A stretch of 64,000 nucleotides of DNA from Methanolobus sediminis (GTDB taxonomy: Archaea > Halobacteriota > Methanosarcinia > Methanosarcinales > Methanosarcinaceae). Position numbers and translations under genes: made by a program. How positions within the stretch are numbered: position 1 is the first letter of the stretch; each line of letters begins with the position of its first letter. The stretch lies in NCBI RefSeq assembly GCF_031312595.1, contig NZ_CP133592.1, positions 2,728,001 to 2,792,000 on the forward strand. The letters run 5' to 3'. The notes beneath the pieces were generated by a model. The model had not been told where the DNA came from, did not search any database, and saw only the letters and a list, made by a program, of their open reading frames with translations. Of the stretch, positions 4,681 to 51,764 are shown piece by piece.

Positions 4681-4745
4681 TCCAGTTTGATTTTTTTTGA
4701 AACAGCCTTCCAAAAAATATATACTAGTTAATTACCCATTATCAG

Positions 4746-13527: not shown

Positions 13528-13545
13528 GGAATTCCTCCTCCATTA

Positions 13546-14571: not shown

Positions 14572-15527
14572 TTCTCCTCCTTCCCAACTTCCACATTCAA
14601 TGAATCAACTTTTATGAGTCCGTTTATCGGTTTGATTTTTAATTTCTTGTTACCATCAAACACTATTGATTCAACTTGTTTGACCCCTTCCGTTTCTTCA
14701 ACAACCTGAGCAATCTCATATATGGAAAGGGATCTTCTGTATGGCCATCCTGTTCTTTCATCCCCTCCAACAAAAGGATCAAGATGCTGTAAGATCCTGT
14801 TCTTAGTATCAGCTTCTATTTTTTCTGCTATTGCATATTGATGACATACAATTTCCAGGTCTATACTAACATCAGAATAAACAGGTTGTTTGACCTTGAT
14901 CTTTGTTCCAATAAGTGTCCTTGGATTCAGGTAATCCATCACATACCCGGTAAGTTCTTTATACCTGCTCTGCTTTTCAGATTCAGCAAGTTCCTCATAT
15001 TGCTTCCATTCACCTGGTATCAGAATTATCTCAACTTTACTTTCATCCAAAGCTTTTTCAACAATAACTCTTCTGACCTCTACCCCGAACATATCAGTAG
15101 CTTCAGCGGCAAGCTGACAAAAATCATCTTCTGTAATTGCCCTGTAGCGTGAATTGAGAAATAGTAAAGCTTCCCTTTTTATATCCGGAATGGGTTTTTC
15201 ATTTCCTTCTTCAATTTCCTTTAAAAATTCAAGGACATTTCTGTGGCACTTGTCTGAGTGAGGATCTTTTAGCAACTTTTCTATTTCATCAATGCCTGAA
15301 GCACCTGCTACAAGTCGTAAAAAATTGACATAGGATTCATTAGGTACTCTATTCATCCTGTAAAGTGTTGCTTCTGCTATCCAGGAAAGCATTTCAAGTA
15401 TCGTTATACCAGGATCTGATGGATTATGGTTTGTCCATCTATCAGTATATTTCGGGATGGATGCAACCATCTCCTCAGAGATCTCCTCATAAGTCTTCGT
15501 ATCAAGATTGGGTAGCTGGATTACCAT
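14568..15527 (-). CDS. Baseplate J/gp47-like protein, short (Afp12-like)
   Basis: A 319-residue protein. The opening LPNLDTKTYEEISEEMVASIPKYTDRWTNHNPSDPGITILEML is the conserved start of CIS baseplate wedge proteins (NPSDPGI motif). Residues about 120-250 form a baseplate J core (REALLFLNSRYRAITEDDFCQLA, EVEIILIPG-like strands), ending with GWPYRRSLSIYEIAQVVEETEGVKQV. It would form the second wedge component with the larger J protein encoded just upstream. Confidence 0.85.
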   Translation of the reverse strand: MVIQLPNLDTKTYEEISEEMVASIPKYTDRWTNHNPSDPGITILEMLSWIAEATLYRMNRVPNESYVNFLRLVAGASGIDEIEKLLKDPHSDKCHRNVLEFLKEIEEGNEKPIPDIKREALLFLNSRYRAITEDDFCQLAAEATDMFGVEVRRVIVEKALDESKVEIILIPGEWKQYEELAESEKQSRYKELTGYVMDYLNPRTLIGTKIKVKQPVYSDVSIDLEIVCHQYAIAEKIEADTKNRILQHLDPFVGGDERTGWPYRRSLSIYEIAQVVEETEGVKQVESIVFDGNKKLKIKPINGLIKVDSLNVEVGKEEK

Positions 15528-15530
15528 ATT

Positions 15531-18500
15531 TTATTCCTCAATTTCCACACTGATAAGTCCGGCACAGGGCAAGGAATCAGGTTCTATCAACAAATGTTCC
15601 ACACCGGCTATCTCTTCTTTTTCTAGACCCGACAATCCTTCAGTTAACTTAATTTCACTGACATAATCCACGCCTTCAATATCCTCAATTACGGCAGCCA
15701 CCTGTGAGGTGGATATGTTCTGTCCAAAATTCCACCCCTTCCCCGTAGGACCACCTTTCAAGGGATGGAAAAATATTTTAAGCGTTTTTTCAACCCTTTT
15801 CAAAACATCAACACTTTCCGTAAGGGATATTGGTCTGACCTTCACATATGCATTTATTTGTGTATAATCAGGACCTATGGTTTTTATTTTGTGAAGAATG
15901 GGGAAAAAAGCCCGATCCTTTAGATACATTTCAACAGATCTTAAAAGTCCAGAATCCGGAAGAGGTGTATGCCCTTCATATTTTGGAACGATAATGACGG
16001 TTATTGTATCGTTTTTTAATACACACTTTGATCTTGCTACATACTGTGAAGCCTCATGTGCAAGCCATTCAAAATCTTCATTGGTGACCGCACGGTCCCT
16101 GTTCTTAATGATATGAGGGAATCTGTCAATTACACTTTCAATATCCTCCATATCCATGCCGCCTGATGATGGAACATGATTGGTTACCGTATCAATTTTC
16201 GGAATGGTTTTCTTTAGCGAAGTAATAGTCTCTGAGGACACATTGCCTCTTGAACCGCCTCCGGAAACATAGTGCCTTGCAATAATATTGTTCTTACCTG
16301 TATGGGGTACCATGCCCCTGTTCCCATCACCAAAAATTATCTTACCGTTTGCCCGATCCAGAACATAATGCCTGCTTAAGGGACCGGATAATGTGAAGTT
16401 GTTTACTTCCACCCATGAGACCCATACTTCTTTTATTTCCCCATATTCCTCTACCACCCTCAAACCATCTAAACCTACTTCAGACTCTATGACCTTTAAT
16501 TCACCTTTAGAAGGAATATTTGATTCTTTTACCTCAACAAGCTGACCTTCAAGCACTGGCCTGTTAGAAAAATTAAATGTCAGATCAGGTTCACCATTTC
16601 CAGAACCAAGTATTTCATTTCTTGAAGTTGTATTGTTCAAAGCCCAAACCGTATTTGGGAAAATACCATTTAATACAGAGCAGGAAAGCCACTTTCCATC
16701 TTTGCTCTCCACCCTGATCCAGTACAGTTCCTTTCCGAACTGTGATGTGGGTTTAATGTCTGAAGGAGCGGAAAAAGATACGATTCCGGCTGTTCTGAAA
16801 GAATCAGATCCATCTTCCACACTGAATTCTTTCCATGAGATGCCATTGTAATATTTCCATACAAGACCGGTCGCTTCGTCATTATCGTTAAAATTATCCT
16901 GATAATCGGATTGTTTGATTCTTACTGGCTCTTCACCGTAGAGCTTATCCTTAACTGCGCAAAAAAGAGTTACTGGCAGTCCTGCAATATCCTCTTCAAA
17001 ACCAAGGTAAAAAACTGGTAATTTTTCCTGACATGTTTCATATATCTTCCCCGGCTCTTCAGGAGCCAGGTCTCTGTATTGAAAATTATTGAATGACCTG
17101 AGCTTTCCAATCCCTACCCCCTCGTAGCTATATGAAATATTAATAGACTGTATGAACGGAGGATTAAAAACAGTTGACTTATCCTGAGAGAATAGATCAG
17201 TTTCATCAAGACTATCCCTTATTTTGTGTGTTGATCTTTTCAATGTAGTGTATAGTGATCCAAAACCATGATCTTCTTCAGATTTGACTCTTCCATCAGT
17301 CTCATATAACTTTTCAGATATGACCCTCATCCTGATCCACTTGTTCAACTGCCCGTTAATTTCGATAGGTGGTATGGAAGGACAGGTTTCAATGAATACC
17401 TGACCGGATCTTGTAAAAGCTTCAGTATTGTCAATAACAGTTAATGGCTCCCAGCCATTTCCATTCCAGTATTCCCATTGGAGTACCAAATTTTTATTTT
17501 CATTCTTTGCTTCATCATATTCAAGTTCAACATCGAATGTTATTGTAGCTCCTTTTTTTGAAAATACCTCTTCTGATCCAATGTACAATGTATCCCTTTT
17601 TTTAGGTACTTCTCCAAAAGGATAAAATCCTTTTTTCATATCAAGCGGGACCACATTGAAAAATGCTGCATCAGGTGTTATATTTTCAACTGTCAGATCC
17701 ATGGATATATTCGATATCGCAGGCAGATCTGTTCCATCAACTATTTTAGTATCATGCGGTTTGACATGTAACCAGAAGCTTTCTATTCCATCTATTGATG
17801 AGCTTTCAAATTTTTGAATACTTTGAATGTCACGAGTTTTATCATTAAAAATGATATCAAGTTTTTTTGCATCCTGACTAGATGTGATTTCAGGATTTTC
17901 AATCAGATTATTGTTGCCATCATACCACAGGTCAAAATACTCTTTAAAAAGATTCTTCCCTTCTAAGTGGAACTTCAATTCAGATGGCAGGTTTTGCATG
18001 TGCAGCAGGATGTCATCACCCATATAGAAAACATGATCAAGAGGTTTTTCATCAGCATCTCCTCCAAATATACAGATCTTTTCTTTTTCACCTGATACAA
18101 CTTTTGAGTGATCAGTGTATTTATCCTCCCAGCTATTCAAAGAAAAAACAGCATTCAATTTTGCAGGAACCACGCTCAATCCCTGTGTTGTTTCAAATAC
18201 CACTTCACTGTCTTCCGATGATACTACCTGAGTACCACGGGGAACAAAACTACCTGAAGAGCCCTCTGCAAGGTAGAATGTTAACGGAACTTTTGAAGGC
18301 TTTGCAGACAGGAGGTTCACTCCCATAAAATCAAAAAATGCAAGACGATGCTTGTCTGGTATTTTGTTAAACTGGGTTATGAGATTTTCAGCCATATCTG
18401 AAAAAAGCCTGAGTATTACCAGACCGGGGTCATCCGGATCAAAATAACCTCTTTTTTGTGGAATAGCTAATTCCGGACAGTAATGTCTTGCAAGCCTTAA

Positions 18501-18560
18501 TGACTGCTCATAAATATCCTCCGAAGTCCTGGTGTCAAGAACAGGAGTTTTAGCAGCCAT
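15531..18560 (-). CDS. Baseplate J/gp47-like protein, long (Afp11-like)
   Basis: A 1009-residue main baseplate wedge protein. The N-terminal part (YCPELAIPQKRGYFDPDDPG) carries the same NPxDPG-type motif as the shorter J protein. Several beta-sandwich inserts follow (WEYWNGNGWEPL and WKYYNGISWKEF are a repeated motif, so two related inserts are present), then the J core (LDRANGKIIFGDGNRGMVPHTG, GGGSRGNVSSETI, DRAVTNEDFEWLAHEAS) and a C-terminal GWNFGQNISTSQVAAVIEDIEGVDYV. Its ATG directly abuts the stop of the gp25-like gene. Length is typical of Afp11-class proteins. Confidence 0.88.
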   Translation of the reverse strand: MAAKTPVLDTRTSEDIYEQSLRLARHYCPELAIPQKRGYFDPDDPGLVILRLFSDMAENLITQFNKIPDKHRLAFFDFMGVNLLSAKPSKVPLTFYLAEGSSGSFVPRGTQVVSSEDSEVVFETTQGLSVVPAKLNAVFSLNSWEDKYTDHSKVVSGEKEKICIFGGDADEKPLDHVFYMGDDILLHMQNLPSELKFHLEGKNLFKEYFDLWYDGNNNLIENPEITSSQDAKKLDIIFNDKTRDIQSIQKFESSSIDGIESFWLHVKPHDTKIVDGTDLPAISNISMDLTVENITPDAAFFNVVPLDMKKGFYPFGEVPKKRDTLYIGSEEVFSKKGATITFDVELEYDEAKNENKNLVLQWEYWNGNGWEPLTVIDNTEAFTRSGQVFIETCPSIPPIEINGQLNKWIRMRVISEKLYETDGRVKSEEDHGFGSLYTTLKRSTHKIRDSLDETDLFSQDKSTVFNPPFIQSINISYSYEGVGIGKLRSFNNFQYRDLAPEEPGKIYETCQEKLPVFYLGFEEDIAGLPVTLFCAVKDKLYGEEPVRIKQSDYQDNFNDNDEATGLVWKYYNGISWKEFSVEDGSDSFRTAGIVSFSAPSDIKPTSQFGKELYWIRVESKDGKWLSCSVLNGIFPNTVWALNNTTSRNEILGSGNGEPDLTFNFSNRPVLEGQLVEVKESNIPSKGELKVIESEVGLDGLRVVEEYGEIKEVWVSWVEVNNFTLSGPLSRHYVLDRANGKIIFGDGNRGMVPHTGKNNIIARHYVSGGGSRGNVSSETITSLKKTIPKIDTVTNHVPSSGGMDMEDIESVIDRFPHIIKNRDRAVTNEDFEWLAHEASQYVARSKCVLKNDTITVIIVPKYEGHTPLPDSGLLRSVEMYLKDRAFFPILHKIKTIGPDYTQINAYVKVRPISLTESVDVLKRVEKTLKIFFHPLKGGPTGKGWNFGQNISTSQVAAVIEDIEGVDYVSEIKLTEGLSGLEKEEIAGVEHLLIEPDSLPCAGLISVEIEE

Positions 18561-18950
18561 TTATTCACTCCCAACATAAAATGGATACACAAGATTGTAC
18601 CTTGTGTTCGATGAAATAATCCTGTACTCAATGCTGATATTCAACCTGTTAAGTTCCTGCTCATCATTATTTGCATCAACCTTGATGAGTTCTATTCTGG
18701 GTTCCCATTTTTTCAAAGCTTCTTCAACGTGAAATATTGCAAAGGAAGCAGTGGATGTATCATTTACAGAGAATGCCAGGTCATGTATCCTGCATCCAAA
18801 ATCAGGTCTCATGACTCTTTCACCTATTGATGTACCAAGGATCAATAGTATCGATTCCCTGATAGAATCCTCATACTTAGACCAGGTAATTTTTCCGTTT
18901 TCAGTTTTCAATGGAAAACTCACGCCAACACCAAGAAAATCCGCATCCAT
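18561..18950 (-). CDS. GPW/gp25-family baseplate protein (Afp9-like)
   Basis: About 129 residues from the ATG at 18950, chosen over an in-frame GTG at 18959 because a GGGTGA ribosome site sits 5 bases before it. The sequence FLGVGVSFPLKTENGKITWSKYEDSIRESILLILGTSIGERVMRPDFG is the gp25 core (GERVMRPDFGC motif). In contractile tails this protein starts sheath assembly at the baseplate. Downstream of the PAAR-like tip gene, overlapping its end. Confidence 0.92.
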   Translation of the reverse strand: MDADFLGVGVSFPLKTENGKITWSKYEDSIRESILLILGTSIGERVMRPDFGCRIHDLAFSVNDTSTASFAIFHVEEALKKWEPRIELIKVDANNDEQELNRLNISIEYRIISSNTRYNLVYPFYVGSE

Positions 18951-18955
18951 TTTCT

Positions 18956-19351
18956 TCACCCTATAAACACGTTACCTGTTGCAACCACTGTTCCTATCGG
19001 CATGTCGGAAGGATCGTTACATGTTATTGCCGTATCCCCATTCCTTGCTGCCGGTTTCCCATTTATTCTCACAGTTGCACTTCCCATGTTTATTGTCGCT
19101 TTATTTGAGGGAGATTTCTGAAAAGGCCCTCCCTGTGGAACGTGATAAGGAGTGTTCGTAGCCGTCGAATCAACTGTTGCAGCAGGCATTCCATCAATCT
19201 TTACATTCCCGCTGAGATTGCCATCTATTATGCCTGTAAACGCATGAGGAACTGGAACAGGAATTGGAGGACCAGGAGGTGCCTGTATCAAAACGATATG
19301 GATATCTGTTGCAATGACCTGATCTCCCTGTTTAGCCGCCGTCATTCCCAT
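18956..19351 (-). CDS. PAAR-like spike-tip protein (Afp10-like)
   Basis: About 131 residues from the ATG at 19351, which has a GGGAG ribosome site; an upstream in-frame TTG at 19381 is less likely. It has the PAAR layout: AAKQGDQVIATDIHIV, then PVPHAFTGIIDGN, GNVKIDGMPAATVDS, VRINGKPAARNGDTAITC and VVATGNVFIG. PAAR proteins form a small cone that sharpens the spike and often carry cargo. No extra effector domain is present here. Confidence 0.9.
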   Translation of the reverse strand: MGMTAAKQGDQVIATDIHIVLIQAPPGPPIPVPVPHAFTGIIDGNLSGNVKIDGMPAATVDSTATNTPYHVPQGGPFQKSPSNKATINMGSATVRINGKPAARNGDTAITCNDPSDMPIGTVVATGNVFIG

Positions 19352-19377
19352 AATTAAACTCCCGATCAATGATCTGA

Positions 19378-20013
19378 TCAATTGAGATCTATTGTAGCTC
19401 CTTTAACAGTCACTTTACCTGACGCTTTCAGGTTCATATCCGATGATGCTTCGATCTTTGTGGCTGCTGATGCTTTAATCTCAATATTTAGTGCATCGAT
19501 AGCAATTTTCCCATTCGGTGCAGACATCTCAATATCCTTGTTTGACACTATGGATATTTTATTATCTTTTGTATCGATCGTGATCATATTTTTTTCAGTT
19601 TTATCTACGATCTCTATTTTTTCGTTGCCCTCTGTGTCATCTATTTTTATCACATGACCACTACGGGACTTCATCATCCTGATATTGTTCTTACCATTAC
19701 TATTCGTTTCAGGAGGGATATCCTTCCCATTCCACAGCGATCCGATGATATATGGCACATTTATATTTCCCTGCTCAAAAACAACAAGAACTTCATCATC
19801 GATTTCCGGCAGGATAAAAATTCCTCTCTCTTTTCCAGCCATAAGTGATGCGACTCTCGCCCAGTTAGACTCATCATCATCGCTAAGCCACGGAAATTTT
19901 ACCCTGATCCGTCCAAGTCCTTCAGGATCCTTGTTGTTTGTCACAATACCTATGACAACACCATAAATCCTTGAATCTGTGCTCTGATCATCAACCAGAT
20001 CCAGTAAACTCAT
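19378..20013 (-). CDS. Baseplate assembly protein V / VgrG C-terminal-like spike protein
   Basis: A 211-residue protein with the gpV/VgrG OB-fold start (GVVIGIVTNNKDPEGLGRIRVKFPWLSDDDESNWARVASLMAG) and the beta-helix needle that follows (repeats such as KNMITIDTKDNKISIVSNKD and KASAATKIEASSDMNLKASG). The ATG overlaps the stop of the preceding gpD-like gene by four bases. In most Afp/PVC systems these two parts are fused in one Afp8/VgrG-like protein; here they are separate and translationally coupled. Confidence 0.88.
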   Translation of the reverse strand: MSLLDLVDDQSTDSRIYGVVIGIVTNNKDPEGLGRIRVKFPWLSDDDESNWARVASLMAGKERGIFILPEIDDEVLVVFEQGNINVPYIIGSLWNGKDIPPETNSNGKNNIRMMKSRSGHVIKIDDTEGNEKIEIVDKTEKNMITIDTKDNKISIVSNKDIEMSAPNGKIAIDALNIEIKASAATKIEASSDMNLKASGKVTVKGATIDLN

Positions 20014-21062
20014 ATCCCGCCCCTCCTGACCTTAAACGATGTTTTGTATCCACTATAATCAATTACATGAGATGTTGAAGTGACATAGTAAGTTCCGCTG
20101 AACCTGCCAATTCCTTTGATCTCAATGGTATTACCAGCTCTCAATTTTGGAATACCTGTACATTTTCCATCACCTGTTACGGACCCTACAAGATGTTTAT
20201 TGTATCTTGCAACTGCAAGTTTTTCTGCATCAAAATTATCAACAGGATGCTCATCTACAATATATGATGAGAATTTACCAAATGCAGACTCAGTCATGTT
20301 TGTTCCGTTATTTTTGACATTCATCGTTGACATGGACCTTTCACTTTTTGATGTTGCAGATACCTGTTTTTTCTTAATGTAATCCCATCCCTGCACCACA
20401 ATTTCATCACCTTCATATCTTGCACTCAAGTCTGCAGAAAACTCTTCCAGGTCAACTCTGTATTCAAGGACCAGGGATGCCGGATCACTCTCTTTTGGTG
20501 ATCGGAAATGTAATGTCCTGTCATCAACAAAAAGCTCGTACCTGATGCGTTTTGCTCGTTGCAATATGAACTCAAGGTCGTTTTGGTTATTTTGATAAAT
20601 ATGCGGATGAACAGTTCCTGTATCTTCCACCTTTGCGCTAAGCCCCCATTCACCGGCAATCGAAGATGCAATGTCACTATCCTTTACATCAACAAATGTG
20701 CGCCTTTTTGTTCCAAAACGAAGCCTGTGCAACCTGTCATAACCTCTGATCTCAATTGTTGAGAAACTTTCACTAAAGGTTGGCTTAAGAGAGGTGACCT
20801 CACCTGCAATCATCAGGACCAGATCATCCATACCCATGTATAATTTGATCTCACTTCCCAGATGAAAATCTTTAAGGTCAACATGTTGCCAGCCCCCTTT
20901 TTCGAAATCGGATGTTGCCAGCTTAAGAATAAACATAGATGCTGTGTTGAGTTCTTCTTCGAATATCACACTTTCAACAGATGCCATAGATTTTGCTGAA
21001 AGCTCGTTGCCATCTACTTTGATCTTAAATATCGGTACTGTGGAAACTATATTTTCTGGCAA
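20010..21062 (-). CDS. Late-control gene D-like protein (VgrG N-terminal part, gpD)
   Basis: A 350-residue protein of the gpD/gp27 hub class. It has VPIFKIKVDGNELS, then IRGYDRLHRLRFGTKRRTFVDVKDSDIASSIAGEWGL, NNQNDLEFILQRAKRIRYELFVDDRTLHFR and a C-terminal GNTIEIKGIGRFSGTYYVTSTSHVID, all standard for phage gpD and CIS hub proteins. Start is TTG with a GGAG ribosome site seven bases upstream. It forms the trimeric hub on which the gpV needle sits. Confidence 0.88.
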   Translation of the reverse strand: MPENIVSTVPIFKIKVDGNELSAKSMASVESVIFEEELNTASMFILKLATSDFEKGGWQHVDLKDFHLGSEIKLYMGMDDLVLMIAGEVTSLKPTFSESFSTIEIRGYDRLHRLRFGTKRRTFVDVKDSDIASSIAGEWGLSAKVEDTGTVHPHIYQNNQNDLEFILQRAKRIRYELFVDDRTLHFRSPKESDPASLVLEYRVDLEEFSADLSARYEGDEIVVQGWDYIKKKQVSATSKSERSMSTMNVKNNGTNMTESAFGKFSSYIVDEHPVDNFDAEKLAVARYNKHLVGSVTGDGKCTGIPKLRAGNTIEIKGIGRFSGTYYVTSTSHVIDYSGYKTSFKVRRGGI

Positions 21063-21081
21063 TTTAAGCTCCTGATAAGGT

Positions 21082-21753
21082 TTAGTCTGGAATTATTATT
21101 ATTTTGCCAATATCATCAGGACCCGGGAAATTCAGTGGATCGTCAATATCATTCAACTCAGCGATCTTACGCCACAATAGTGGATCCTTAAGTTCTTCTG
21201 CTGCTATGATGTCAAGCCTTTCTCCCTGTTTGACCTGTCTGACCTTTCTGCATGCTTCAACACCTTTGAGCTTTAACGCATCCTGTGCATTCACAACCGA
21301 CCTCATTACAACGGTCAACTTCGCACGAACAGGAATTCCAGTTGACATGAACATTGTGAAATTTTGAGAAACTGATTCCACAACTCCTTTAAAATTAAAT
21401 TTACCCCAGCTGAACAAGCATACAGGCGGCTTTTTTGTTTCTTTTCCCTCAGCAGTTGGAACAGCAAGTTCCATGATTCTTTTTGTTCCGGCAACTTTTC
21501 TGACCCTACCGGAAATTGAAACTTCATTATCTTCTCTTACATCAGCACGGATCTCATATGTATCAAAAAATAAATTGAGTGTCAAAGTGCCAAAAGTTGT
21601 TTTTGTGAACTCAGGCATCATACCCCTGTCACCCACCCATGTTGCATTTATGGTGCTTGTATAATCAGTCGGGTTGAACATTACCTCTATGGTCTTGTCC
21701 TTAACAACACCCTTACCCTGATCATCCAGGATGTATATTTTGGCTTTTTCCAT
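21082..21753 (-). CDS. LysM-containing CIS tube/baseplate adaptor protein (Afp7-like)
   Basis: A 223-residue protein with the CIS tube-associated N-terminal domain (IEVMFNPTDYTSTINATWVG, then GTLTLNLFFDT) and a C-terminal LysM domain (about 172-222, VKQGERLDIIAAEELKDPLLWRKIAELN). Afp7/gp53-type proteins link tube, hub and baseplate. Start ATG overlaps the stop of the upstream 453-residue gene by one base. Confidence 0.88.
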   Translation of the reverse strand: MEKAKIYILDDQGKGVVKDKTIEVMFNPTDYTSTINATWVGDRGMMPEFTKTTFGTLTLNLFFDTYEIRADVREDNEVSISGRVRKVAGTKRIMELAVPTAEGKETKKPPVCLFSWGKFNFKGVVESVSQNFTMFMSTGIPVRAKLTVVMRSVVNAQDALKLKGVEACRKVRQVKQGERLDIIAAEELKDPLLWRKIAELNDIDDPLNFPGPDDIGKIIIIPD

Positions 21754-23114
21754 TACCTGAGACCTCTCCGTTCTTTTTCAATTGAAAGTTTAGATTCAAG
21801 AAGTTTGTAGACCCTATCGGCAATGATAGTGATATTATCAATATTCTCAACACTGTTTAGTGACTTGACATTTTTCTCAACAACAGCTGCCTTTTCTGAA
21901 TCTGTTTTGTCTATTCCGGTTGTGATGGCATCAGATTTTACCTTATTGTCAGGCTCTTCGTCTGAATTTTGAACAGCAGATTTTCTTAGAACCAGATCAG
22001 AAGGTATTCTGGAAATGTTACTTGATGAAAGATCAAATGGCACATTAATATCTGTTTGCGCATTCCTTGCATGATGTAAAGAGAGATCACCCTGATTGGA
22101 TAACAGGTTGGGACTAGTTGGAACTTCACCATCCTCAGCCTCCATATCCGCTATCCTCAATCTTGCAATATGTTTATTAGAAACAGACCTGTTTGCAATA
22201 TTCTTTTTTTCAGTCATCAAATACCGTTCTTCTGTTCGCCTGCTAAAATTCTCATATTTTTCATACACAAGTTCATTTCGTTTTTGAACACGTGCCACTA
22301 AGGTATCAATTTTTAAAACAGCCTCATCCGCATGAGTGGAGGAATGCAAAATGATGTCTTTGGCTTTTGTATTTTCATCCACTTTCACTCCTGCAAGCAC
22401 CTGCTTGGTGTATTCATCAAAGGAAGAAATATCAGGTGTCTTTAGATGCTGTAATTTTAACAAATCACCAGTATTTTCGAGCTGTATTTTGTCTGATTGT
22501 GTTTTGAGAAAGATACTTTTCTTGCTCAGGTTGTTTGAAAGAATTAATGGATTTTTCATTTTTTCTCTTTGAGATAGTGTCTTTTCAGATAGTGTTCTCA
22601 CGAGTTCCATTGTTTCCTGGGTCTTTACTGATACAGGCTCAAAAATAAGATTCGGAGTTTGCCGGTCAACTAGCTTCAAGTATCTCATCAAGCGTGGAGT
22701 TACAGGGTGCTTTTTATCTTCCCCTGAACCTGTTTGTATATTCATCTGCTGTTCTAACACATTTTTTCCAGATGATAATTGATTTTTAAACTCAGACTCA
22801 TGGGTAACTACATTTTGTGCTGGCCAACTTGTTAAATGCAAATTCAGATATTGAATTATGCTGGTACTTAATATTTTTTTAATAATATCTTGATTAATGT
22901 TTGTTAATTTGATTGTACCATCGACTGTTTCCAGTAACCTTAAAAATATTAACGACGGAAAATTACCTTGTTTTGTGCCAATAGAATATCGCTGGATAAT
23001 CTGGTTAAAAAGATCAGGTTCATTAACTTTCATTGACGAAATTGTACTTACAGGCAACACTGTTGGTAGCTTCTTTTGCAATATACTGCAATCTGTATGT
23101 AATTGTTCATTCAT
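21753..23114 (-). CDS. CIS-operon protein of unknown function; possible tape-measure-like protein
   Basis: A 453-residue soluble protein between the second tube gene and the LysM adaptor gene, the slot held by Afp6 in Afp-type clusters. Residues about 35-100 look like a small helical domain (IIQRYSIGTKQGNFPSLIFLRLLET). The rest is charged, low in aromatic residues and helical or disordered, ending in a predicted helix (VENIDNITIIADRVYKLLESK). No recognised motif. It could act as tape measure or chaperone, since no other tape-measure candidate lies in the operon. Confidence 0.6.
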   Translation of the reverse strand: MNEQLHTDCSILQKKLPTVLPVSTISSMKVNEPDLFNQIIQRYSIGTKQGNFPSLIFLRLLETVDGTIKLTNINQDIIKKILSTSIIQYLNLHLTSWPAQNVVTHESEFKNQLSSGKNVLEQQMNIQTGSGEDKKHPVTPRLMRYLKLVDRQTPNLIFEPVSVKTQETMELVRTLSEKTLSQREKMKNPLILSNNLSKKSIFLKTQSDKIQLENTGDLLKLQHLKTPDISSFDEYTKQVLAGVKVDENTKAKDIILHSSTHADEAVLKIDTLVARVQKRNELVYEKYENFSRRTEERYLMTEKKNIANRSVSNKHIARLRIADMEAEDGEVPTSPNLLSNQGDLSLHHARNAQTDINVPFDLSSSNISRIPSDLVLRKSAVQNSDEEPDNKVKSDAITTGIDKTDSEKAAVVEKNVKSLNSVENIDNITIIADRVYKLLESKLSIEKERRGLR

Positions 23115-23143
23115 GCTACCACATCAATTAAGTGGAAAATTAG

Positions 23144-23599
23144 TTATGGAATTCTTTTGAGTCCGTGATGAGCCAGGGTCAGAGTCTCAGTTGCAATGGT
23201 ACCGGTTATAGCATTGAGTGATGGGCCATTCAGTTTTATCGGATAAGCATCAACAAAGCTCCATGTTACCAGAGGAGAACCATCCTGATCACAAAGAAAG
23301 ATCAAACCGTCTTTCCTTTTGACCTTTCCATTTATGGCATCATCATACCATCTCCAGATCAGATCATGATCAGTGATCCCGCGCTTTAGAGTTATGTTGG
23401 AATATTTTGTACCTTTAGGGAGCTTATATTCAATGCCATTAGCTCCCCCTTCTCTTATAGTTTCAACTTCCGTTTCGATATCCAGACCGGAGACCTCAGT
23501 AAATCCAGCTGCAGTAAGTCCTTCGATCTCTACAATAAAATTATAGGCACTATAAGGATCGACTCGCTTTTTTCCAGATAATAAATTTGATTTGGGCAA
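23144..23599 (-). CDS. CIS tail tube protein, second copy (Afp5/Afp1-like)
   Basis: A 151-residue T4 gp19-type inner tube protein: DPYSAYNFIVEIEGLTAAGFTEVSGLDIETEVETIREGG, then KYSNITLKRGITDHDLIWRWYDDAINGK and LNAITGTIATETLTLAHHGLKRI. Start is TTG with a strong GGAGG ribosome site. It differs from the first tube protein at 24170-24607 and may form the ring that meets the baseplate. Confidence 0.92.
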   Translation of the reverse strand: MPKSNLLSGKKRVDPYSAYNFIVEIEGLTAAGFTEVSGLDIETEVETIREGGANGIEYKLPKGTKYSNITLKRGITDHDLIWRWYDDAINGKVKRKDGLIFLCDQDGSPLVTWSFVDAYPIKLNGPSLNAITGTIATETLTLAHHGLKRIP

Positions 23600-23625
23600 A
23601 GTTTCCTCCAGGTCTAATTTTGTCC

Positions 23626-23811
23626 TTACATATCCAGAATACTCTTTTCATTAGAATTCGAATTGAGATTCTTGTTTATCTTACTGACCTCTTTACACCA
23701 GAGTTGCCTGTCCCTATGTTCCATGTTCATGATGGTTTCATGGTCCCAGTGGAAATAGTAAGCCAGGAATGCTACCTCCTCAAGCAATTGATTGAGGGGG
23801 TAGCTTAGCAT
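23626..23811 (-). CDS. Small CIS-operon protein (DUF6760-like)
   Basis: A 61-residue protein between the two tube genes. EEVAFLAYYFHWDHETIMNMEHRDRQLWCKEVSKIN matches the short conserved protein that accompanies tube genes in many extracellular CIS loci (DUF6760). Its start overlaps the end of the preceding gene by seven bases, so it is part of the coupled operon. Role unknown; the position suggests tail-assembly help. Confidence 0.75.
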   Translation of the reverse strand: MLSYPLNQLLEEVAFLAYYFHWDHETIMNMEHRDRQLWCKEVSKINKNLNSNSNEKSILDM

Positions 23812-24173
23812 TTCCCCTGATCATTCACCTCGACGTCAAACATGTGTTCACATTTGGGACAAACTGTTTTTATCACGTCTGATCCGTTTTCGTTGATCCG
23901 CTGGTAAAGTTCCTGCAGATAGGCCATATCGGCTATGAACAAATTTTCAATATTCCGTGTATTGATAGAATGCAGAGTGCCCAGCTTTGTGATTACACGG
24001 GATAGCAAGATTACACTCAAGTAAGCCGGATTTGACTGTACTCTTGGATCCTTTAAAGGTAAGATCTCATCTGCTGCAGTTGCAAGACGCATGATCCCAT
24101 CCTTGTGCAGGTTGCCATCTTCATCAACATACCCTTGTGGAAGTGTGAACTCAAATTCTGTCTGAAACGTCAT
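23805..24173 (-). CDS. CIS tail-assembly protein with a C-terminal zinc-ribbon half
   Basis: A 122-residue protein with the conserved opening FTLPQGYVDEDGNLHKDGIMRLATAADEILPLKDPRVQSNPAYL, a helix that carries RVITKLG, and a C-terminal CPKCEHMFDVEV (one CxxC pair). Equivalent small proteins lie between tube genes in other CIS loci and are compared with T4 gp51-type or tail-assembly chaperones. The start overlaps the stop of the first tube gene (four bases). Confidence 0.75.
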   Translation of the reverse strand: MTFQTEFEFTLPQGYVDEDGNLHKDGIMRLATAADEILPLKDPRVQSNPAYLSVILLSRVITKLGTLHSINTRNIENLFIADMAYLQELYQRINENGSDVIKTVCPKCEHMFDVEVNDQGKC

Positions 24174-24607
24174 TGTACCCTGTCCATTCCCTCATGAGCG
24201 ATCTCGATCGTTTCAATAGCTACATCATTTCCCATGGCGTTTAGGTCAGGAGCATTATACTTAACAGGCCATGCTTCCCTGAACTCCCAGCGAGCTGCCG
24301 GATTTCCTCCTTCATCCAGAAGAAGAACAGCAATATTTTTTCTCGCCTCGGCAGTCTTTCCCTGAATTACCTGCTTTCGCCATTCAAATAGCTCGGTAGA
24401 ATCTGTAATTCCCCATTTAAGGGTCAGATTTCCGTATTTAGTTAGCCCCGGAAGCTTTCTGACAGTTGTATCTTCATTTCCTTCCCTGTATTCGATAGAA
24501 TCGGTGGCGATATCCGGGATCGTAACTTCACTGAAACCTGCCTGAATAATTCCATCTATTTCCAGCAGGAACCTGGAATTTCTATAAGGGTCTTTTCTTT
24601 CTGGCAT
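24170..24607 (-). CDS. CIS tail tube protein, first copy (Afp1-like)
   Basis: A 145-residue gp19-type tube protein: DPYRNSRFLLEIDGIIQAGFSEVTIPDIATDSIEYREG, KYGNLTLKWGITDSTELFEWRKQVIQG, and LNAMGNDVAIETIEIAHEGMDRV. It lies just after the sheath gene, the usual order for the main stacking tube subunit. Confidence 0.92.
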   Translation of the reverse strand: MPERKDPYRNSRFLLEIDGIIQAGFSEVTIPDIATDSIEYREGNEDTTVRKLPGLTKYGNLTLKWGITDSTELFEWRKQVIQGKTAEARKNIAVLLLDEGGNPAARWEFREAWPVKYNAPDLNAMGNDVAIETIEIAHEGMDRVQ

Positions 24608-24623
24608 ATTTATTCACTTCCAA

Positions 24624-26165
24624 TTACTCCGTCGCTGAGGATCCGCCTGCCCATTGTGCAATTCTGAAAATAACAAATTCAGCCGGTTTAACCGGAGCAA
24701 TACCTATCTTGACAATGAGTCTTCCGTTATCTATATCGTCCTGGGTCATGGTAGTTCTGTCACACTTGACAAAAAACGCCTCATTCGGAGTCGTACCCAT
24801 GAGAGCACCATCTCTCCATACTGTTGTTAAAAACTGGGTGATCGTTTGTTTTACCCTTGCCCAGAGCCTTTCGTTATTAGGCTCAAAAACAGCCCACTGG
24901 GTTCCCTCTTCAATGGATTCTTCAATGTATAAGAACAGGCGGCGTACATTGACATATTTCCACATTGGGTCGCTGGATGTTGTCCTTGCACCCCATAGTC
25001 TGATACCTCTTCCCGGGAATACGCGAATGCAATTAACTCCTCTGGGATTCAGTATATCCTGCTCTCCTTTGGTAAGAGCAAATTGTACTTCCTGAACTCC
25101 CCGGACAACTTCATTTGCCGGTGCTTTGTGTACTCCTCTCTCAACGTCGCTTCGGGCGTATATTCCGGCAATGTGCCCACCAGGTGGAACCAGTTTTTTA
25201 TTGTTCGTTACGGGATTTACTACATTGATCCATGGATAGTAAAATGCTGCATACTTGGAATCCAGCGGAGGTCTGAGTGCAGAAACATCGCCAGCACTCT
25301 GATCTGCCTGCAATACTGCAAATCTATCTTTCATCTTTTCGCAGTGATCTACTATAATGCCTGTCATACCAACAGAATTCTCATCCGGAACACAGATGAT
25401 ACTGATCTCATCTATCTCTTCAAAGGCAGCCAGACCGGTTCTTTGTCCTGTTGTGGCAATACCCTGATAGTCTGAGAGTTTGGGAGCTTTGTCATTTCCC
25501 CCTACAAGCAGATCTATTACAGAATCAGGTATTCCTTCTCCTTTTTTCTCAACATTTATAAGATTTGATATGCCGTTGATCTTCTTTTCGTAGAAGTCGC
25601 TGCTTGCTTCCTGAGGGGAGAGATTATCGTAGATCTCAACCATTTCAGGATCATTGTTCTTTTTCTTTTGTTCATTTACCTTATCAGCGCCATCTGGATT
25701 CTTCCCTTCTGACTCTAGCATATTTCTCCAGTATTTTACGGTCAGTTTAAAAAGTGGATTTGTATCCTGATGAAGTGTGGCTTTTTCTACAATAACTGCT
25801 ACATTTCCGCCCCATACTCCAGGACCAACTGCAGTTACTTCTATTACACTTACATCTTTTTCGCCTTCGCTACTGGTCAATGTAGCTTTAGCTGTACCTG
25901 AACCTGTACCTGTTATACGACCTATAATACAACGCTGTCCTCCGTTTCTGAAAAAGCCGTCAACCCCATAGGCAAGATACGAATTTTCGATGAATCCTCC
26001 ATATTTGTTCTTGAAATCATCGAAGTTTGTAACAAGCCTTGGACCTGTTGGTCCTCTTTCGGTTTTTCCAAGGAATCCTGCTGTACTGGTGCTTACACCT
26101 TCAATTGGTTTTGCACCTATCTCTATTTCTTCAATGTATACTCCTGGTGCCAAATATTCCGGCAT
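24624..26165 (-). CDS. CIS contractile tail sheath protein (Afp2/3/4-like)
   Basis: A 513-residue sheath protein with the family's N-terminal LAPGVYIEEIEIGAKPIEGVSTSTAGFLGKTERGP and C-terminal NNERLWARVKQTITQFLTTVWRDGALMG followed by GRLIVKIGIAPVKPAEFVIFRIAQW. It forms the outer contractile cylinder; only one sheath gene is present. A perfect AAAGGAGG ribosome site precedes the ATG, as expected for a highly made protein, and a perfect 20-bp palindrome lies just upstream. Confidence 0.95.
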   Translation of the reverse strand: MPEYLAPGVYIEEIEIGAKPIEGVSTSTAGFLGKTERGPTGPRLVTNFDDFKNKYGGFIENSYLAYGVDGFFRNGGQRCIIGRITGTGSGTAKATLTSSEGEKDVSVIEVTAVGPGVWGGNVAVIVEKATLHQDTNPLFKLTVKYWRNMLESEGKNPDGADKVNEQKKKNNDPEMVEIYDNLSPQEASSDFYEKKINGISNLINVEKKGEGIPDSVIDLLVGGNDKAPKLSDYQGIATTGQRTGLAAFEEIDEISIICVPDENSVGMTGIIVDHCEKMKDRFAVLQADQSAGDVSALRPPLDSKYAAFYYPWINVVNPVTNNKKLVPPGGHIAGIYARSDVERGVHKAPANEVVRGVQEVQFALTKGEQDILNPRGVNCIRVFPGRGIRLWGARTTSSDPMWKYVNVRRLFLYIEESIEEGTQWAVFEPNNERLWARVKQTITQFLTTVWRDGALMGTTPNEAFFVKCDRTTMTQDDIDNGRLIVKIGIAPVKPAEFVIFRIAQWAGGSSATE

Positions 26166-26200
26166 TCACTAAAACCTCCTTTGATTATATGATGAATATC

Positions 26201-26220
26201 ATTCCTGAAATTTCAGGAAT
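26201..26220 (-). promoter_or_regulatory. Perfect 20-bp palindrome between the 204-residue gene and the sheath gene
   Basis: The sequence attcctgaaatttcaggaat is a perfect palindrome that includes the stop codon of the gene upstream and ends about 35 bases before the sheath start codon. In RNA it would form a hairpin. It may be a processing or protection site that adjusts sheath mRNA, or a partial terminator; no U-tract follows it. Confidence 0.5.
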
Positions 26221-26827
26221 AAATGAGTGTGAATGATGTGGTTTTTCCTTCCTCTGTTTCCAGAGATTTCGTTTTTTTCTTGTGATCTGGAAACTGGATC
26301 TCAATGACGGGATTTTTTTCTTTTATTTTCACAAGCTTCTTACCGTCTATTGTTGTAACATCATCTTTTTTCAAATTCTTGAAATAGATGACAAATTCTC
26401 CTTTTTCCGTTGTTTTTGTCTCTATGTCCCTTTCTTTAACCTTCAGCGATGCTTCAAATATTCCCATACCTTTGGAACTTTGCAGGCATCCTCTTATTAA
26501 AGTGGCAGACGTTGAGAATGGATAAGAAGGAGCAGGTTTGAGGATAATATTTATAATCGGATTTTTATCCTGATCTGTCAGTTTTACATCCTCTTCTTCA
26601 TCAAAATAGTATTCTCCACCTTGTATCTGGACTGTATAGCTACCTTTCGGTATATCCAGGAATATGTAATACCCACTGGGATTTCTAACCGGTTCAATTC
26701 TCTTGCCTTTTAAAGACACTTCCACATTACCGATAATTTTGTCAGTGGTATAATCATCGATAAGATTAACAACCAGCGAAAATTTTTCAGTAAAGCCTAC
26801 AGAAGATAATTCTATTATTTGGCTCAT
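26213..26827 (-). CDS. CIS-operon beta-sandwich protein (carboxypeptidase-regulatory-like)
   Basis: A 204-residue soluble protein with two predicted beta-sandwich domains: YTTDKIIGNVEVSLKGKRIEPVRNPSGYYIFLDIPKGSYTVQIQGG (about 25-80) and GCLQSSKGMGIFEASLKVKERDIETKTTEKGEFVIYFKNL (about 110-150). The fold type is shared with the N-terminal part of the protein at 11159-12313. It lies between the cap and sheath genes. Function unknown; a particle decoration or effector carrier is possible. Confidence 0.6.
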   Translation of the reverse strand: MSQIIELSSVGFTEKFSLVVNLIDDYTTDKIIGNVEVSLKGKRIEPVRNPSGYYIFLDIPKGSYTVQIQGGEYYFDEEEDVKLTDQDKNPIINIILKPAPSYPFSTSATLIRGCLQSSKGMGIFEASLKVKERDIETKTTEKGEFVIYFKNLKKDDVTTIDGKKLVKIKEKNPVIEIQFPDHKKKTKSLETEEGKTTSFTLIYS

Positions 26828-26831
26828 CTTT

Positions 26832-27428
26832 TTACCTGATTAGAGATTTTTCCAGTTTTCTTTCAGTGACCCGTTTATCTTCTTTCTGCCGAGTAGATTC
26901 TACCTTCACCGGAGTCACCAGATAACAAACTGAAGGCCTGTAAGGTTTATTCTGAAACGTGCTCCATATCCTGGTAATATCATCCAGGCTAATAGGAGCT
27001 ATATTTAAATGCAACTCCTCATTACATTCGGCCAGACTTCCCCTCAAAGCCGAACCTTTCAGGATGGAATTATCGTTTAAGATTTGTATGGCTCTGCCCA
27101 GCAAGCTGTGTTCTTCTTTTGCTCTTTCAGTCTTGTCCTGAATGGTATTTGACGGGTAGGATGTTAGCACATAATACAGATCAAGGTTCAGGGGTGGCAA
27201 CCTAAGTCTAGTGGGATCAAATGGATCATTTGCTTGCATCTCCTGATTTTTCAAATATGTATTTTCAGTAATCTGATAGAGGAAAAGAGATAATCGTATG
27301 TTGTCACCTGTTTCGATCTCTCCAGGAGATATCAGAACTATTGAGTCACGAACACGTGAATCTAAATTGTCTCTTAAAAGATCGATTAGTGTTTCTCCCA
27401 CTTCTGCTATTGATGTATAATCGCCCAT
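26832..27428 (-). CDS. Pvc16/DUF4255-like CIS tail-terminator (cap) protein (Afp16-like)
   Basis: About 198 residues from the ATG at 27428, with a GAGGAT ribosome site; a TTG one codon earlier is less likely. The sequence IAEVGETLIDLLRDNL, then IRLSLFLYQITENTYLKNQ and PPLNLDLYYVLTSYPSN match the DUF4255/Pvc16 N-terminal domain that caps the sheath-tube end in Afp and PVC particles. It is the second gene in the operon. Confidence 0.88.
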   Translation of the reverse strand: MGDYTSIAEVGETLIDLLRDNLDSRVRDSIVLISPGEIETGDNIRLSLFLYQITENTYLKNQEMQANDPFDPTRLRLPPLNLDLYYVLTSYPSNTIQDKTERAKEEHSLLGRAIQILNDNSILKGSALRGSLAECNEELHLNIAPISLDDITRIWSTFQNKPYRPSVCYLVTPVKVESTRQKEDKRVTERKLEKSLIR

Positions 27429-27460
27429 CAATTAATCCTCTTAAATGTGTAATTTTAATT

Positions 27461-39296: not shown

Positions 39297-40736
39297 ATGA
39301 GTTCAATTCACGAAGATCTGGTCAAATCGCTCAACTCCAAACAGGAAGCATATGTTAATCTGGAATTGCCTGATCCGACAAACGGTGAATATCTCCTTGG
39401 TGTTTTCCATCTGAGACCCGGTGGAAAATTCAATATTCTGCAGGCAGCTGCTGAAGTTGCAGCTGAATCATCAACAGGTACTAATTTTAAGGTAAATACA
39501 GAGACTTCATTTTCCAGAGTTATGAATGCCCTGGTTTACCAGCTTGATCTGGAACGTGAACTCATATGGATCGCATATCCCTGGAGACTTTTTGACAGGG
39601 GAGGAAATGTACAGAACATTCTCACCTATATTGTAGGTAATATCCTCGGAATGAAGGAAGTAGCAGCCCTGAAACTCCTGGATGTATGGTTCCCTCCATC
39701 TATGCTTGAACAGTATGACGGTCCAAGCTATACGGTCGATGACATGAGGAAGTACCTTGATGTCTATGACAGGCCAATTCTCGGAACTATAGTCAAGCCA
39801 AAAATGGGACTTACATCTGCTGAGTATGCAGAAGTCTGTTATGATTTCTGGGTTGGTGGCGGTGATTTTGTCAAGAACGATGAACCACAGGCCAATCAGG
39901 ATTTCTGTCCATATGACAAGATGGTAAAACATGTGAAGGAAGCAATGGATAAAGCTGTTCGTGAAACAGGACACAAAAAGGTACATTCATTTAACGTATC
40001 AGCTGCTGATTTTGACACCATGATCGAAAGGTGTGAAATGATAGTCAATGCAGGTTTTGAGCCTGGAAGCTATGCATTCCTCATTGATGGAATTACAGCA
40101 GGCTGGATGGCTGTTCAGACACTCAGAAGAAGATACCCGGGCGTTTTCATTCACTTCCACAGGGCAGCACATGGAGCATTCACAAGACCTGAAAATCCAC
40201 TGGGCTTCTCAGTACTTGTCCTGTCCAAATTCGCAAGGCTTGCCGGTGCTTCAGGAATCCACACAGGAACTGCAGGTGTTGGAAAAATGCAGGGTACACC
40301 TGAAGAGGATGTGGTTGCAGCACATGGGATACAATACATGAGTGCTGAAGGACACTTCTTCAAACAGAGCTGGTCCAAGATACCTGATACCGATAAAGAT
40401 GCTATTAATATTGTAAATATAGATATGGCACACCATGTAGTGCTTGAAGATGATAGCTGGAGAGGTATGAAAAAATGCTGTCCAATCGTCTCAGGTGGAC
40501 TTAATCCTGTAAGACTTAAGCCTTTTATTGATGTCATGGGAAATGTTGATTTCATAACCACAATGGGATCCGGGGTACATGCTCACCCGGGAAGTACACA
40601 GGACGGAGCTAAAGCCCTTGTACAGGCATGTGATGCATATCTACAGAAGATCGATATTGAAGAATATGCAAAGAGCCATAAGGAACTGGCACAGGCAATT
40701 GAATACTTCACTAAAGCATCAAAGGATGCAATGTGA
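39297..40736 (+). CDS. rbcL: RuBisCO large subunit, form II/III (Methanococcoides burtonii type)
   Basis: A 479-residue RuBisCO. Catalytic residues are intact: KPK at 167-169, carbamylated Lys in GGGDFVKNDEPQ at 193, His in FHFHRAAHGA-like loop, the SGGLNP and TTMGSGVHAHPG phosphate loops. The sequence closely follows the M. burtonii enzyme, including the extra segment around SKIPDTDKDAINIVNIDMAH and WRGMKKCCPIVSG. In archaea this enzyme usually takes part in AMP/nucleotide salvage with AMP phosphorylase and ribose-1,5-bisphosphate isomerase, neither of which is in the window. Upstream spacer is short with a TATA-like taaaatac, so the mRNA may be leaderless. Confidence 0.97.
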   Translation: MSSIHEDLVKSLNSKQEAYVNLELPDPTNGEYLLGVFHLRPGGKFNILQAAAEVAAESSTGTNFKVNTETSFSRVMNALVYQLDLERELIWIAYPWRLFDRGGNVQNILTYIVGNILGMKEVAALKLLDVWFPPSMLEQYDGPSYTVDDMRKYLDVYDRPILGTIVKPKMGLTSAEYAEVCYDFWVGGGDFVKNDEPQANQDFCPYDKMVKHVKEAMDKAVRETGHKKVHSFNVSAADFDTMIERCEMIVNAGFEPGSYAFLIDGITAGWMAVQTLRRRYPGVFIHFHRAAHGAFTRPENPLGFSVLVLSKFARLAGASGIHTGTAGVGKMQGTPEEDVVAAHGIQYMSAEGHFFKQSWSKIPDTDKDAINIVNIDMAHHVVLEDDSWRGMKKCCPIVSGGLNPVRLKPFIDVMGNVDFITTMGSGVHAHPGSTQDGAKALVQACDAYLQKIDIEEYAKSHKELAQAIEYFTKASKDAM

Positions 40737-49556: not shown

Positions 49557-50006
49557 ATGAATATAAAATACGATGTGGAAAATAACGTTATGCAGATCGA
49601 TGATGTTGACCTGTATCCCGAAAACCTTGACCGTAACTTTATAGGGATCTGCAATTCTTGCAATTCAGATGTCACCAGTCTCAGTTATCATGTCCATGAC
49701 AATGGTATGGTAGTTGCAGGTAAATGCACAGCATGCGGCGTACTGTATGCAATATTCTACGATACAGAATGGAATTGGCAGGGAGAAGAAACTATTGTAG
49801 ACTTCTTCAATATCAATAGCAGTAACAATATTCGATTTCTGGACAGCATTGATAGAAAAAAACTTGAAACCGTTTTTACTCCTGCTGAAACCACTGCAAT
49901 GTATGCAAAAGCAAGAGGAGAGAAATATGTCAGACAATACCTGTATCGTGCCAGAAAAAAATATAATGACTTTTATGAACTGTTTGGAATACAAATTAAC
50001 ATATGA
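49557..50006 (+). CDS. Small zinc-binding hypothetical protein
   Basis: A 149-residue protein with two CxxC pairs (ICNSCNSD near 31-36 and KCTACGVLY near 57-62) that form a probable zinc ribbon, then a mixed region and a C-terminal basic helix (ARGEKYVRQYLYRARKKYNDF). A GGTGACG ribosome site precedes the ATG. Divergent from the winged-helix pair. Family not recognised. Confidence 0.6.
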   Translation: MNIKYDVENNVMQIDDVDLYPENLDRNFIGICNSCNSDVTSLSYHVHDNGMVVAGKCTACGVLYAIFYDTEWNWQGEETIVDFFNINSSNNIRFLDSIDRKKLETVFTPAETTAMYAKARGEKYVRQYLYRARKKYNDFYELFGIQINI

Positions 50007-50334
50007 ATATAATATAATAAGTTAACAAGACAGTGTATGAAGTCCAGGCAATGTAGTAATTTTTATAGATATTAAATAAATAAATACTCAATGTTTGATA
50101 ATATATAATACTATATTTATAAATAGTAACATTAATTGAAAGTGATAGAGGTTTTGAATCATAAATAGTCAGAAAAATCTATCTGCACTAAATCACACTT
50201 TTGTACTATTTTTTTTAACTGTGATAATAACTTTAATGAATATTACTGCAAATGTCAGAAATAATAATTAATAATTAAAATTAAATTATATAGACAACAG
50301 TCATAAATAGCAACATTTACATACGTGTAACCAG

Positions 50335-50419
50335 TGAGGGAATAAATTTCAATTTACCTAATAGAGCTATATAACACCCACTAACCATCTATATTGTACC
50401 ACCAATATTTATTCCCTCA
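50335..50419 (+). ncRNA. Candidate small RNA / long hairpin 1
   Basis: Perfect 13-bp stem TGAGGGAATAAAT (50335-50347) with ATTTATTCCCTCA (50407-50419) around a loop of 59 bases rich in A/C (cccactaacc). A TATA-like aaattatata lies about 45 bases before it. No ORF. First of four similar elements. Strand is uncertain; plus is suggested by the TATA placement. Confidence 0.35.
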
Positions 50420-50590
50420 TATTAGCAAGGTTTATATCCATTATTCTTTAAATGTGATTTAGGTCATATTTATTAATTGAAAGAGCACACTTCTTGAAAA
50501 TATGCAGTGATTATATTAATAAACAAAACTATTCTTGTTAAATTATATATAATATCACATAAAAAGTAACTGTTGCATAGTGCAGGAGAG

Positions 50591-50680
50591 AATAAATCGT
50601 AAATCCTCCTTGGGCCTGTAAGGATGAACACTAACTGCCTAACCTAACCCTAACATGTCCCTATCAGGCCTTTATTTATT
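50591..50680 (+). ncRNA. Candidate small RNA / long hairpin 2
   Basis: Nested stems AATAAAT/ATTTATT (50591-50597, 50674-50680) and GGCCTG/CAGGCC (50613-50618, 50665-50670) enclose a C/A-rich loop with ctaacctaaccctaac. The 5' side holds aatcctcctt, complementary to Shine-Dalgarno sequences. A TATA-like aattatatataa lies about 40 bases upstream and a T6 run (50687-50692) downstream. No ORF. Confidence 0.4.
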
Positions 50681-50870
50681 ACACTATTTTTTACCAAGGC
50701 ACATGCAGAATTTGGATCATGAAATGTTTATTAACCTGTGCATCCTGTCGCCTGATAAGTATTGAGCGCCGAATAAAATACATGATCATTTGCTACGATC
50801 AAAACTCATATTTCTAAACATAGCTTCCTGTCATCATAAATATGTGTAAAATATAATTCCTATTAACCAT

Positions 50871-50931
50871 TAGGCATTAGTGGTTACCTTATGGGGCAAT
50901 TACCCATTACCCAACCTTCATTTTGCCCCAT
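50871..50931 (+). ncRNA. Candidate small RNA / hairpin 3
   Basis: A small stem TAACCA/TGGTTA is followed by a perfect 9-bp stem ATGGGGCAA (50891-50899) with TTGCCCCAT (50923-50931) around a loop ttacccattacccaaccttc of the same C/A-rich type. TATA-like aaaatataat is about 25 bases ahead. No ORF. Confidence 0.35.
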
Positions 50932-51257
50932 CAGGACTTCTTGCTTGTTCTACTTTTTCAGTATCAAGTGGGAAAAAGGATTATTTATCAAGATCTGCTG
51001 AAACTAACAATAATCAAGAGCAGTAAGCAGTTAACTTGGCCAAGTAATATCTAATGTCAATAGCATTGAAAATAATAACGTCGTTGTTTATTCAAATGTT
51101 GTAGTGAATAAAAATGCAATTTTTTTAAATAATTAATTAACCATAGAATGAATAGGAGTACAGGACTAAGCGTGCTGGGGAGTGGCTTAGATATTAATCA
51201 TATAACAAAAACCAAATTAGGTGGTGCAAATTGTTATAAGATTAATGCTTCAATATA

Positions 51258-51320
51258 GTCTGATAGAGGATCTAAATACATCATACCAACCAATGTGCTC
51301 TATACCTCCCTCTATCAGAC
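51258..51320 (+). ncRNA. Candidate small RNA / hairpin 4
   Basis: Perfect 12-bp stem GTCTGATAGAGG (51258-51269) with CCTCTATCAGAC (51309-51320) around a 39-base A/C-rich loop that includes ataccaaccaatg. The element ends about 90 bases before the metzincin start codon, so it might alternatively be part of that gene's leader. Confidence 0.35.
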
Positions 51321-51407
51321 TTGACATTAATAGTTGCCTCATGTTACAACCCTATCCAACCAAGCTCTCATTTTCTTCACAAGGCAACTTTTAATTATGA
51401 AGGTGCA

Positions 51408-51764
51408 ATGATGTATGAAGTTAAAATCATGGGCCTGCTTTCTTTTTTCCTCTACAGGTGGAAACGTGAAGGCAGGAAAATCTTTAAGCTGACTGATAGC
51501 GGTTACCCGTCCTTTTTAGCTCTTGGATACTGCAACCACCCTAATAAGGAAATAGTGATCTGTCGGGTTCTTAACTGGAAGCTCCGGTTATTGCATGAGA
51601 TGGGGCACGAGTTTGGCCTACAGCACATCAAGGAAAAAGGGCATGTAATGCACCCGTGGGGATTCCTGAGAGGGCCTATTATCGACCCTTCAGAGTGTGA
51701 CCCGGACACGTATCTTAAAATGAAAGAAAGATATCAAGAGGCTTTAAATGAGCAGGGCCTTTAA
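51408..51764 (+). CDS. Small metzincin-like metalloprotease (phage-like)
   Basis: A 118-residue protein from the ATG at 51408, which has an AAGGTG ribosome site; an open frame upstream to 51321 is unsupported. It has the full metzincin zinc motif HEMGHEFGLQH (63-73) and a Met-turn-like VMHPWG (80-85). That is short for a free protease. It is the first of three overlapping small genes, with two small membrane proteins next, an arrangement typical of virus lysis or accessory cassettes. Confidence 0.7.
   Translation: MMYEVKIMGLLSFFLYRWKREGRKIFKLTDSGYPSFLALGYCNHPNKEIVICRVLNWKLRLLHEMGHEFGLQHIKEKGHVMHPWGFLRGPIIDPSECDPDTYLKMKERYQEALNEQGL

Follow-up and report, generated by a model that had tools for sequence, protein, structure and literature searches.

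In the chromosome of Methanolobus sediminis, an AT-rich gap of 1.4 kb between two genes contains five hairpins on the + strand, which we assign to a lineage-restricted, tandemly expanded and diversified family of putative RNAs (the whole stretch of DNA that was analysed, 64,000 nucleotides from position 2,728,001 of NZ_CP133592.1, is called the window, and window coordinates count from its first base). This assignment is well supported by sequence comparison, since the units keep one slot and one strand, have conserved blocks with compensatory changes, and match no known family; with the changes in copy number and the T-rich DNA 3' of the hairpins, the original prediction of a diversified small RNA family is supported. 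Our preferred reading, to which we give a probability of about 0.55, is that the gap contains small non-coding RNA genes in tandem, each transcribed separately, whose loops base-pair with other RNAs in trans. Each unit would have a promoter of its own and a 5' part that is structured but variable, followed by a hairpin at the 3' end; compensatory change would preserve the stem of this hairpin, and its C-rich, G-poor loop would lie just ahead of a T-rich stop region. Units would be gained and lost inside a single slot of the chromosome, and some copies would lie at other sites.

All four hairpins of the original prediction are present, with limits corrected to 50334–50420, 50612–50671, 50887–50935 and 51257–51321 (all +), and their loops are indeed poor in G and rich in C; a fifth hairpin in the same gap (51326–51395, +) had been overlooked. 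The start-to-start distances are 277, 275 and 370 bases, so the even spacing claimed for the four is limited to the first three. The elements are more than simple hairpins: each forms the 3' terminus of a conserved unit that is longer. Unit 1 has a TATA-like box at 50302–50310 (CATAAATAG, with ATAAATA kept in most of five orthologues), and its hairpin has a stem of 13–14 bp and a 59-nt loop with CACCCACTAACC and TTGTACCACCA, both nearly invariant across five species. Unit 2 has a TATA-like box at 50543–50552 (TTATATATAA; orthologues are similar), a leader (50585–50609) in which GGAG (50585–50588) can pair with CCTCC (50605–50609), both kept in most of six orthologues, and a hairpin with orthologues, loop ACTAACTGCCTAACCTAACCCTAACATG, and a stem of 6 bp followed by a 2x2 internal loop and further pairs inside. 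In unit 3, a TATA-like box at 50835–50842 (CATAAATA, identical in four orthologues) precedes a leader hairpin at 50865–50886 (AACCATTAGGCATTAGTGGTTA, identical in four species and complementary to the unit 2 loop) and the C-rich hairpin, which has 13 stem positions, one mismatch and a 23-nt loop. Unit 4 (of the kind we call type-4) has a TATA-like stretch at 51124–51136, found in the alignment of 11 type-4 loci (or, alternatively, one at 51231–51240), a core at 51154–51264 with helices P2 (51166–51171 with 51185–51190) and P3 (51193–51246), and a C-rich hairpin with 13 bp and a 39-nt loop; all these features lie on the + strand. A hairpin with TTGCC/GGCAA-type arms comes after many type-4 units. 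The TATA-like boxes claimed upstream of the four hairpins were thus found, as was CCTCC in two of them, 5' of the unit 2 stem and at the loop end of unit 4 (51305–51309). Directly 3' of the array lies a small metalloprotease-like gene (51411–51764, +; HEMGHEFGLQH) with weak Pfam similarity to M54/M10, and a partial relative of it is also found near the array of one other genome (G009). Elsewhere in the window are a run of genes (11159–27431, −) resembling sheath, tube, spike and baseplate-like proteins, a putative contractile injection system, and a gene that by eye resembles the RuBisCO large subunit (39297–40736).

We scanned for such hairpins with a stem score of at least 25, a loop of 18–65, C of at least 25% and G of at most 10%, thresholds that were picked after the elements had been seen. 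Under these post hoc thresholds the window has 4 matches, all inside the 1.1 kb region, namely the hairpins of units 1, 3 and 4 and the fifth hairpin; that of unit 2 is below the threshold because its stem is interrupted. By comparison, 20 stretches spaced evenly over the same genome, in total 400,000 bases or about 14% of it, contain 7 matches, and dinucleotide shuffles of the region give a mean of 0.02 matches and a maximum of 1 (n = 200).

The gap is a conserved slot with the order DUF2551 gene, 149-aa gene, hairpin array and MFS gene (in G009 the MFS end lies beyond the stretch examined, and G024 was checked for the left gene alone). The 149-aa gene (49557–50006, +), which forms the left edge, has close orthologues (at least 64% identity) in 14 of 27 Methanolobus genomes including its own, and its Pfam and PHROG searches gave no match. 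Clear family hairpins are found in the slot in 9 of these 14 genomes and one doubtful hairpin in G014, while the slots of G008 (899 bases only), G011, G002 and G004 show no family hairpin in up to 1.5 kb. Searching 40 genomes with the region gave matches in 6, that of the window counted, and arrays were read in G019, G001, G006, G009, M. vulcani PL 12/M (G040), M. vulcani B1d (G022), M. profundi Mob M (G016) and G024. By one criterion throughout, the number of hairpins per slot ranges from 0 to 10 in nine slots: window 4, G019 8, G001 10, G006 2, G009 4, M. vulcani PL 12/M 6, M. vulcani B1d 2, M. profundi 2 and MAG M17C 0. These make 38 hairpins in the same orientation as the 149-aa gene vs 0 in the opposite one; because the criterion demands a C-rich loop, any hairpin is countable on one strand only, and the result is to be read as a shared direction of all hairpins. 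In the G009 slot, a frame that we named by eye as an IS200/IS605-like TnpA transposase (4343–4780 of locus L016, −) adjoins unit 2. Outside the slot, the window genome has an extra copy at 273 kb, with GCACAGT...ACTGTGC, CTCCT, and next a stem (GCCTGATAA) whose loop is C-rich, a two-part design that occurs in the arrays too.

Conservation follows the proposed units. In a structure-free alignment of six orthologous units, mean pairwise identity is 0.90 and 0.92 in the two arms, 0.84 in the loop and 0.76 in the 80-nt leader, as compared to 0.54 far upstream, 0.53 in the next 25 nt downstream and 0.40 beyond, so that the conserved blocks stop just 3' of the hairpin, ahead of T-rich DNA (T fraction 0.435 over the first 30 nt vs 0.345 over the following 60). 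Among 59 hairpins that we listed manually, a strict TATA motif occurs in the 150 nt upstream of 34 and is absent there from 25; the 150 nt downstream contain one in 20 cases, and the promoter of the next unit often falls in that stretch. These patterns suggest that the units are transcribed. It is very improbable that the units are short coding genes or encode leader peptides, as single-base gaps within the conserved loops break any shared frame; in favour one could cite GGAG ahead of some units and two overlapping frames, one of 52 aa on the opposite strand over unit 2 and one of 57 aa, starting with GTG, that spans parts of unit 4 and the fifth hairpin. DNA elements without a product (origin, operator or terminator palindromes) are improbable as well: the region has a high AT content and numerous inverted repeats, the DNA after the hairpins is T-rich, and the cumulative GC skew of the window has its minimum near 55 kb, but loops and leaders show conservation and all of them share one strand. 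A replication origin in particular was rejected, since both orc1/cdc6 genes that exceed the cut-off are remote from the array: they map to 1.38 and 1.85 Mb, the array to 2.78 Mb.

Several compensatory changes point to a structured RNA. Among orthologues, the unit 1 stem has a stepwise change through T-A, T-G and C-G, and in M. vulcani PL 12/M both bases of one unit 3 stem pair differ (G-C to A-T). The pair counts of our alignment A1 (25 rows, 93.5% of cells paired) are circular because its rows were picked for folding. For the type-4 unit, we used an unfitted MAFFT alignment of 11 copies, in which 92.8% of the cells of 22 pairs are paired; 9 pairs have double changes, and in helix P3 8 of 16 pairs are altered on both sides. 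Covariation is 0.309 vs 0.168 in shuffles, with 0 of 500 shuffles as high and a best value of 0.119 when slid, while a measure of further pair types is not above shuffles (167/500). We conclude from these alignments that element 4 is part of a longer, predicted multi-hairpin RNA with compensatory changes. Pairing of the P3 loop with the C-rich loop inside type-4 units was rejected, as most of the 12 units examined did no better than shuffles (the best, L017, had 10/300). Two type-4 units (2989–3201 of L059 in G004 and 2417–2629 of L061 in G024) lie just upstream of the same short gene, helix-turn-helix-like by eye. L059 also has a hairpin at 2473–2538 with a GC-rich 9-bp stem, whose loop CCACTCCCACACTAACCCCCACTCCCC is complementary to GGGGAGTGGG, common in type-4 units.

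Model searches restrict the family to one genus. The original prediction had proposed a model search across methanogen genomes, and a wide family of this kind did not emerge: R2, the model of the type-4 core, matches 8 of 237 genomes of the class, in one of 39 genera (Methanolobus only). The window core scores 88.8 bits as one of the R2 training sequences, and in G014, which is outside the training, an R2 match (E 1.9e-7) is followed after 14 nt by a match to our other model, R1; the predicted type-4 RNA of G014 is not unusually stable (z −1.55). R1 matches the hairpins of units 2 and 4 in the window (that of unit 4 is a training sequence), and at E 0.01 it has matches in 11 of 27 Methanolobus genomes, six of them outside the training set, with 8 matches in M. 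vulcani PL 12/M, which is absent from that set. Matches in G032 and G059 have E values of 0.012 and 0.036, and a stretch in G020 (E 0.05) contains no clear family hairpin in one scan. We counted the R1 matches in G041 and G015 as false because they are near-identical to each other and the G041 one lies inside a 175-aa reading frame. In G041, which we take to be M. psychrophilus R15, there is no R1 match at E 0.01 and no R2 match. Neither model has a match in the searched Methanosarcinaceae outside Methanolobus (for R2, among the 237 class genomes).

Loops are kept among orthologues and differ among paralogues, which fits trans-acting base-pairing RNAs, the reading that we prefer with moderate confidence. 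The exposed loops would most likely pair with G-rich stretches of other RNAs, and every paralogue would have its own loop, so its own partners. The same pattern fits RNAs with loop-specific partners and, likewise, a protein sponge. CsrB is a single RNA with repeated GGA motifs in single-stranded loops for CsrA; the family resembles it in having repeated loop motifs and differs in that these are of ACC type and spread across separate units. That the units are sponges for an RNA-binding protein reading single-stranded ACC-type motifs, i.e. CsrB-like with another motif, is possible but unlikely. ACC, CCTAA and GTACC are common to paralogues, and in 25 representative loops we found ACC in 25, CCAA in 21, CCTAA in 10 (2.7 expected) and GTACC in 6 (1.0 expected), and multiple copies sharing motifs would suit titration. 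However, ACC hardly exceeds its shuffle expectation of 21.9, the conservation of orthologous loops extends along much of the loop, beyond what a short motif needs, and the recurrence of CTAAC, CCTAA and GTACC above shuffles is confounded by common descent, which can also give shared motifs.

Base pairing in trans remains our preferred mechanism, suggested by the loops but weakly supported, and no target was found for it. The proposed pairing of the elements with ribosome-binding sites was not supported: over 362 start regions, taken from about 464 kb or about 17% of the genome, dinucleotide-shuffled loops pair just as well as the C-rich ones. For units 1 and 2, sequences complementary to the loop are no commoner than reversed-pattern controls and revealed no shared target; most of the places examined that match loop-complement patterns are in coding genes, and a few are unexplained. 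Within the array, a possible pairing between the unit 2 loop and the unit 3 leader was first noticed by eye; it would involve 19 base pairs, interrupted by two single-base bulges, and in three relatives its energy is about −24 kcal/mol (0 of 1000 shuffles either way). One may therefore ask if the units regulate each other, the loop of one RNA pairing with the leader of another in a small RNA-RNA circuit. We regard this as doubtful: in the window the pairing is weaker (−17.8; 45 and 7 of 1000 shuffles) and shows no compensating change, G006 and G009 have unit 2 and no unit 3 in the slot stretches examined, and when 42 loops were each compared with the rest of their array, only 4 reached at most 5 of 200 shuffles (about 1 expected). 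Doubtful too is a gene-like birth-and-death RNA family, in which the slot would be a nursery, loops would diversify for new partners, and units 2 and 3 would pair as a self-contained circuit.

At the gathering threshold, Rfam 15 finds only tRNA in the window and seven relative loci, and the plasmid and phage collections contain no match to the family. Viral spread was considered and rejected: the GCCTGATAAG palindromes of six viral contigs are GC-rich, unrelated hairpins, and the type-4 stem was not found in viral contigs. The closest working analogue is LhrC of Listeria, with five homologous G-poor sRNA copies and a proven target, whose C-rich UCCC loop motifs pair with a G-rich translation start (PMC4132741). 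As far as that source describes LhrC, the likeness lies in several homologous copies per genome (here seen as DNA) that are G-poor and have C-rich loops; the Methanolobus paralogues differ in that their loops and 5' parts vary, their host is archaeal and no target was found for them. In another methanogen of the Methanosarcinaceae, Methanosarcina mazei, the intergenic, trans-acting sRNA154 and sRNA41 mask ribosome-binding sites, and sRNA162/sRNA171 are likewise intergenic and trans-acting, sRNA162 having three stem-loops and a homologue (PMC3510493, PMC5867862); the parts of these reports cited here do not describe arrays of diversified units, and our comparison with these sRNAs was via the models only. 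Methanolobus psychrophilus R15 has cold-induced, conserved intergenic sRNAs with a 'cold box' upstream of their promoters, and 43 of its intergenic regions hold at least two sRNAs (PMC5378194). They share genus, conservation and intergenic position with our family and, compared by their description in that source, may or may not include relatives of it.

Few archaeal small RNAs have a known function, and in the literature searched we came across no archaeal cluster of sRNAs that are both tandem and diversified. With a fixed slot that contains 0 to 10 units, comparison of Methanolobus species may help to show how new regulatory RNAs arise and gain targets.
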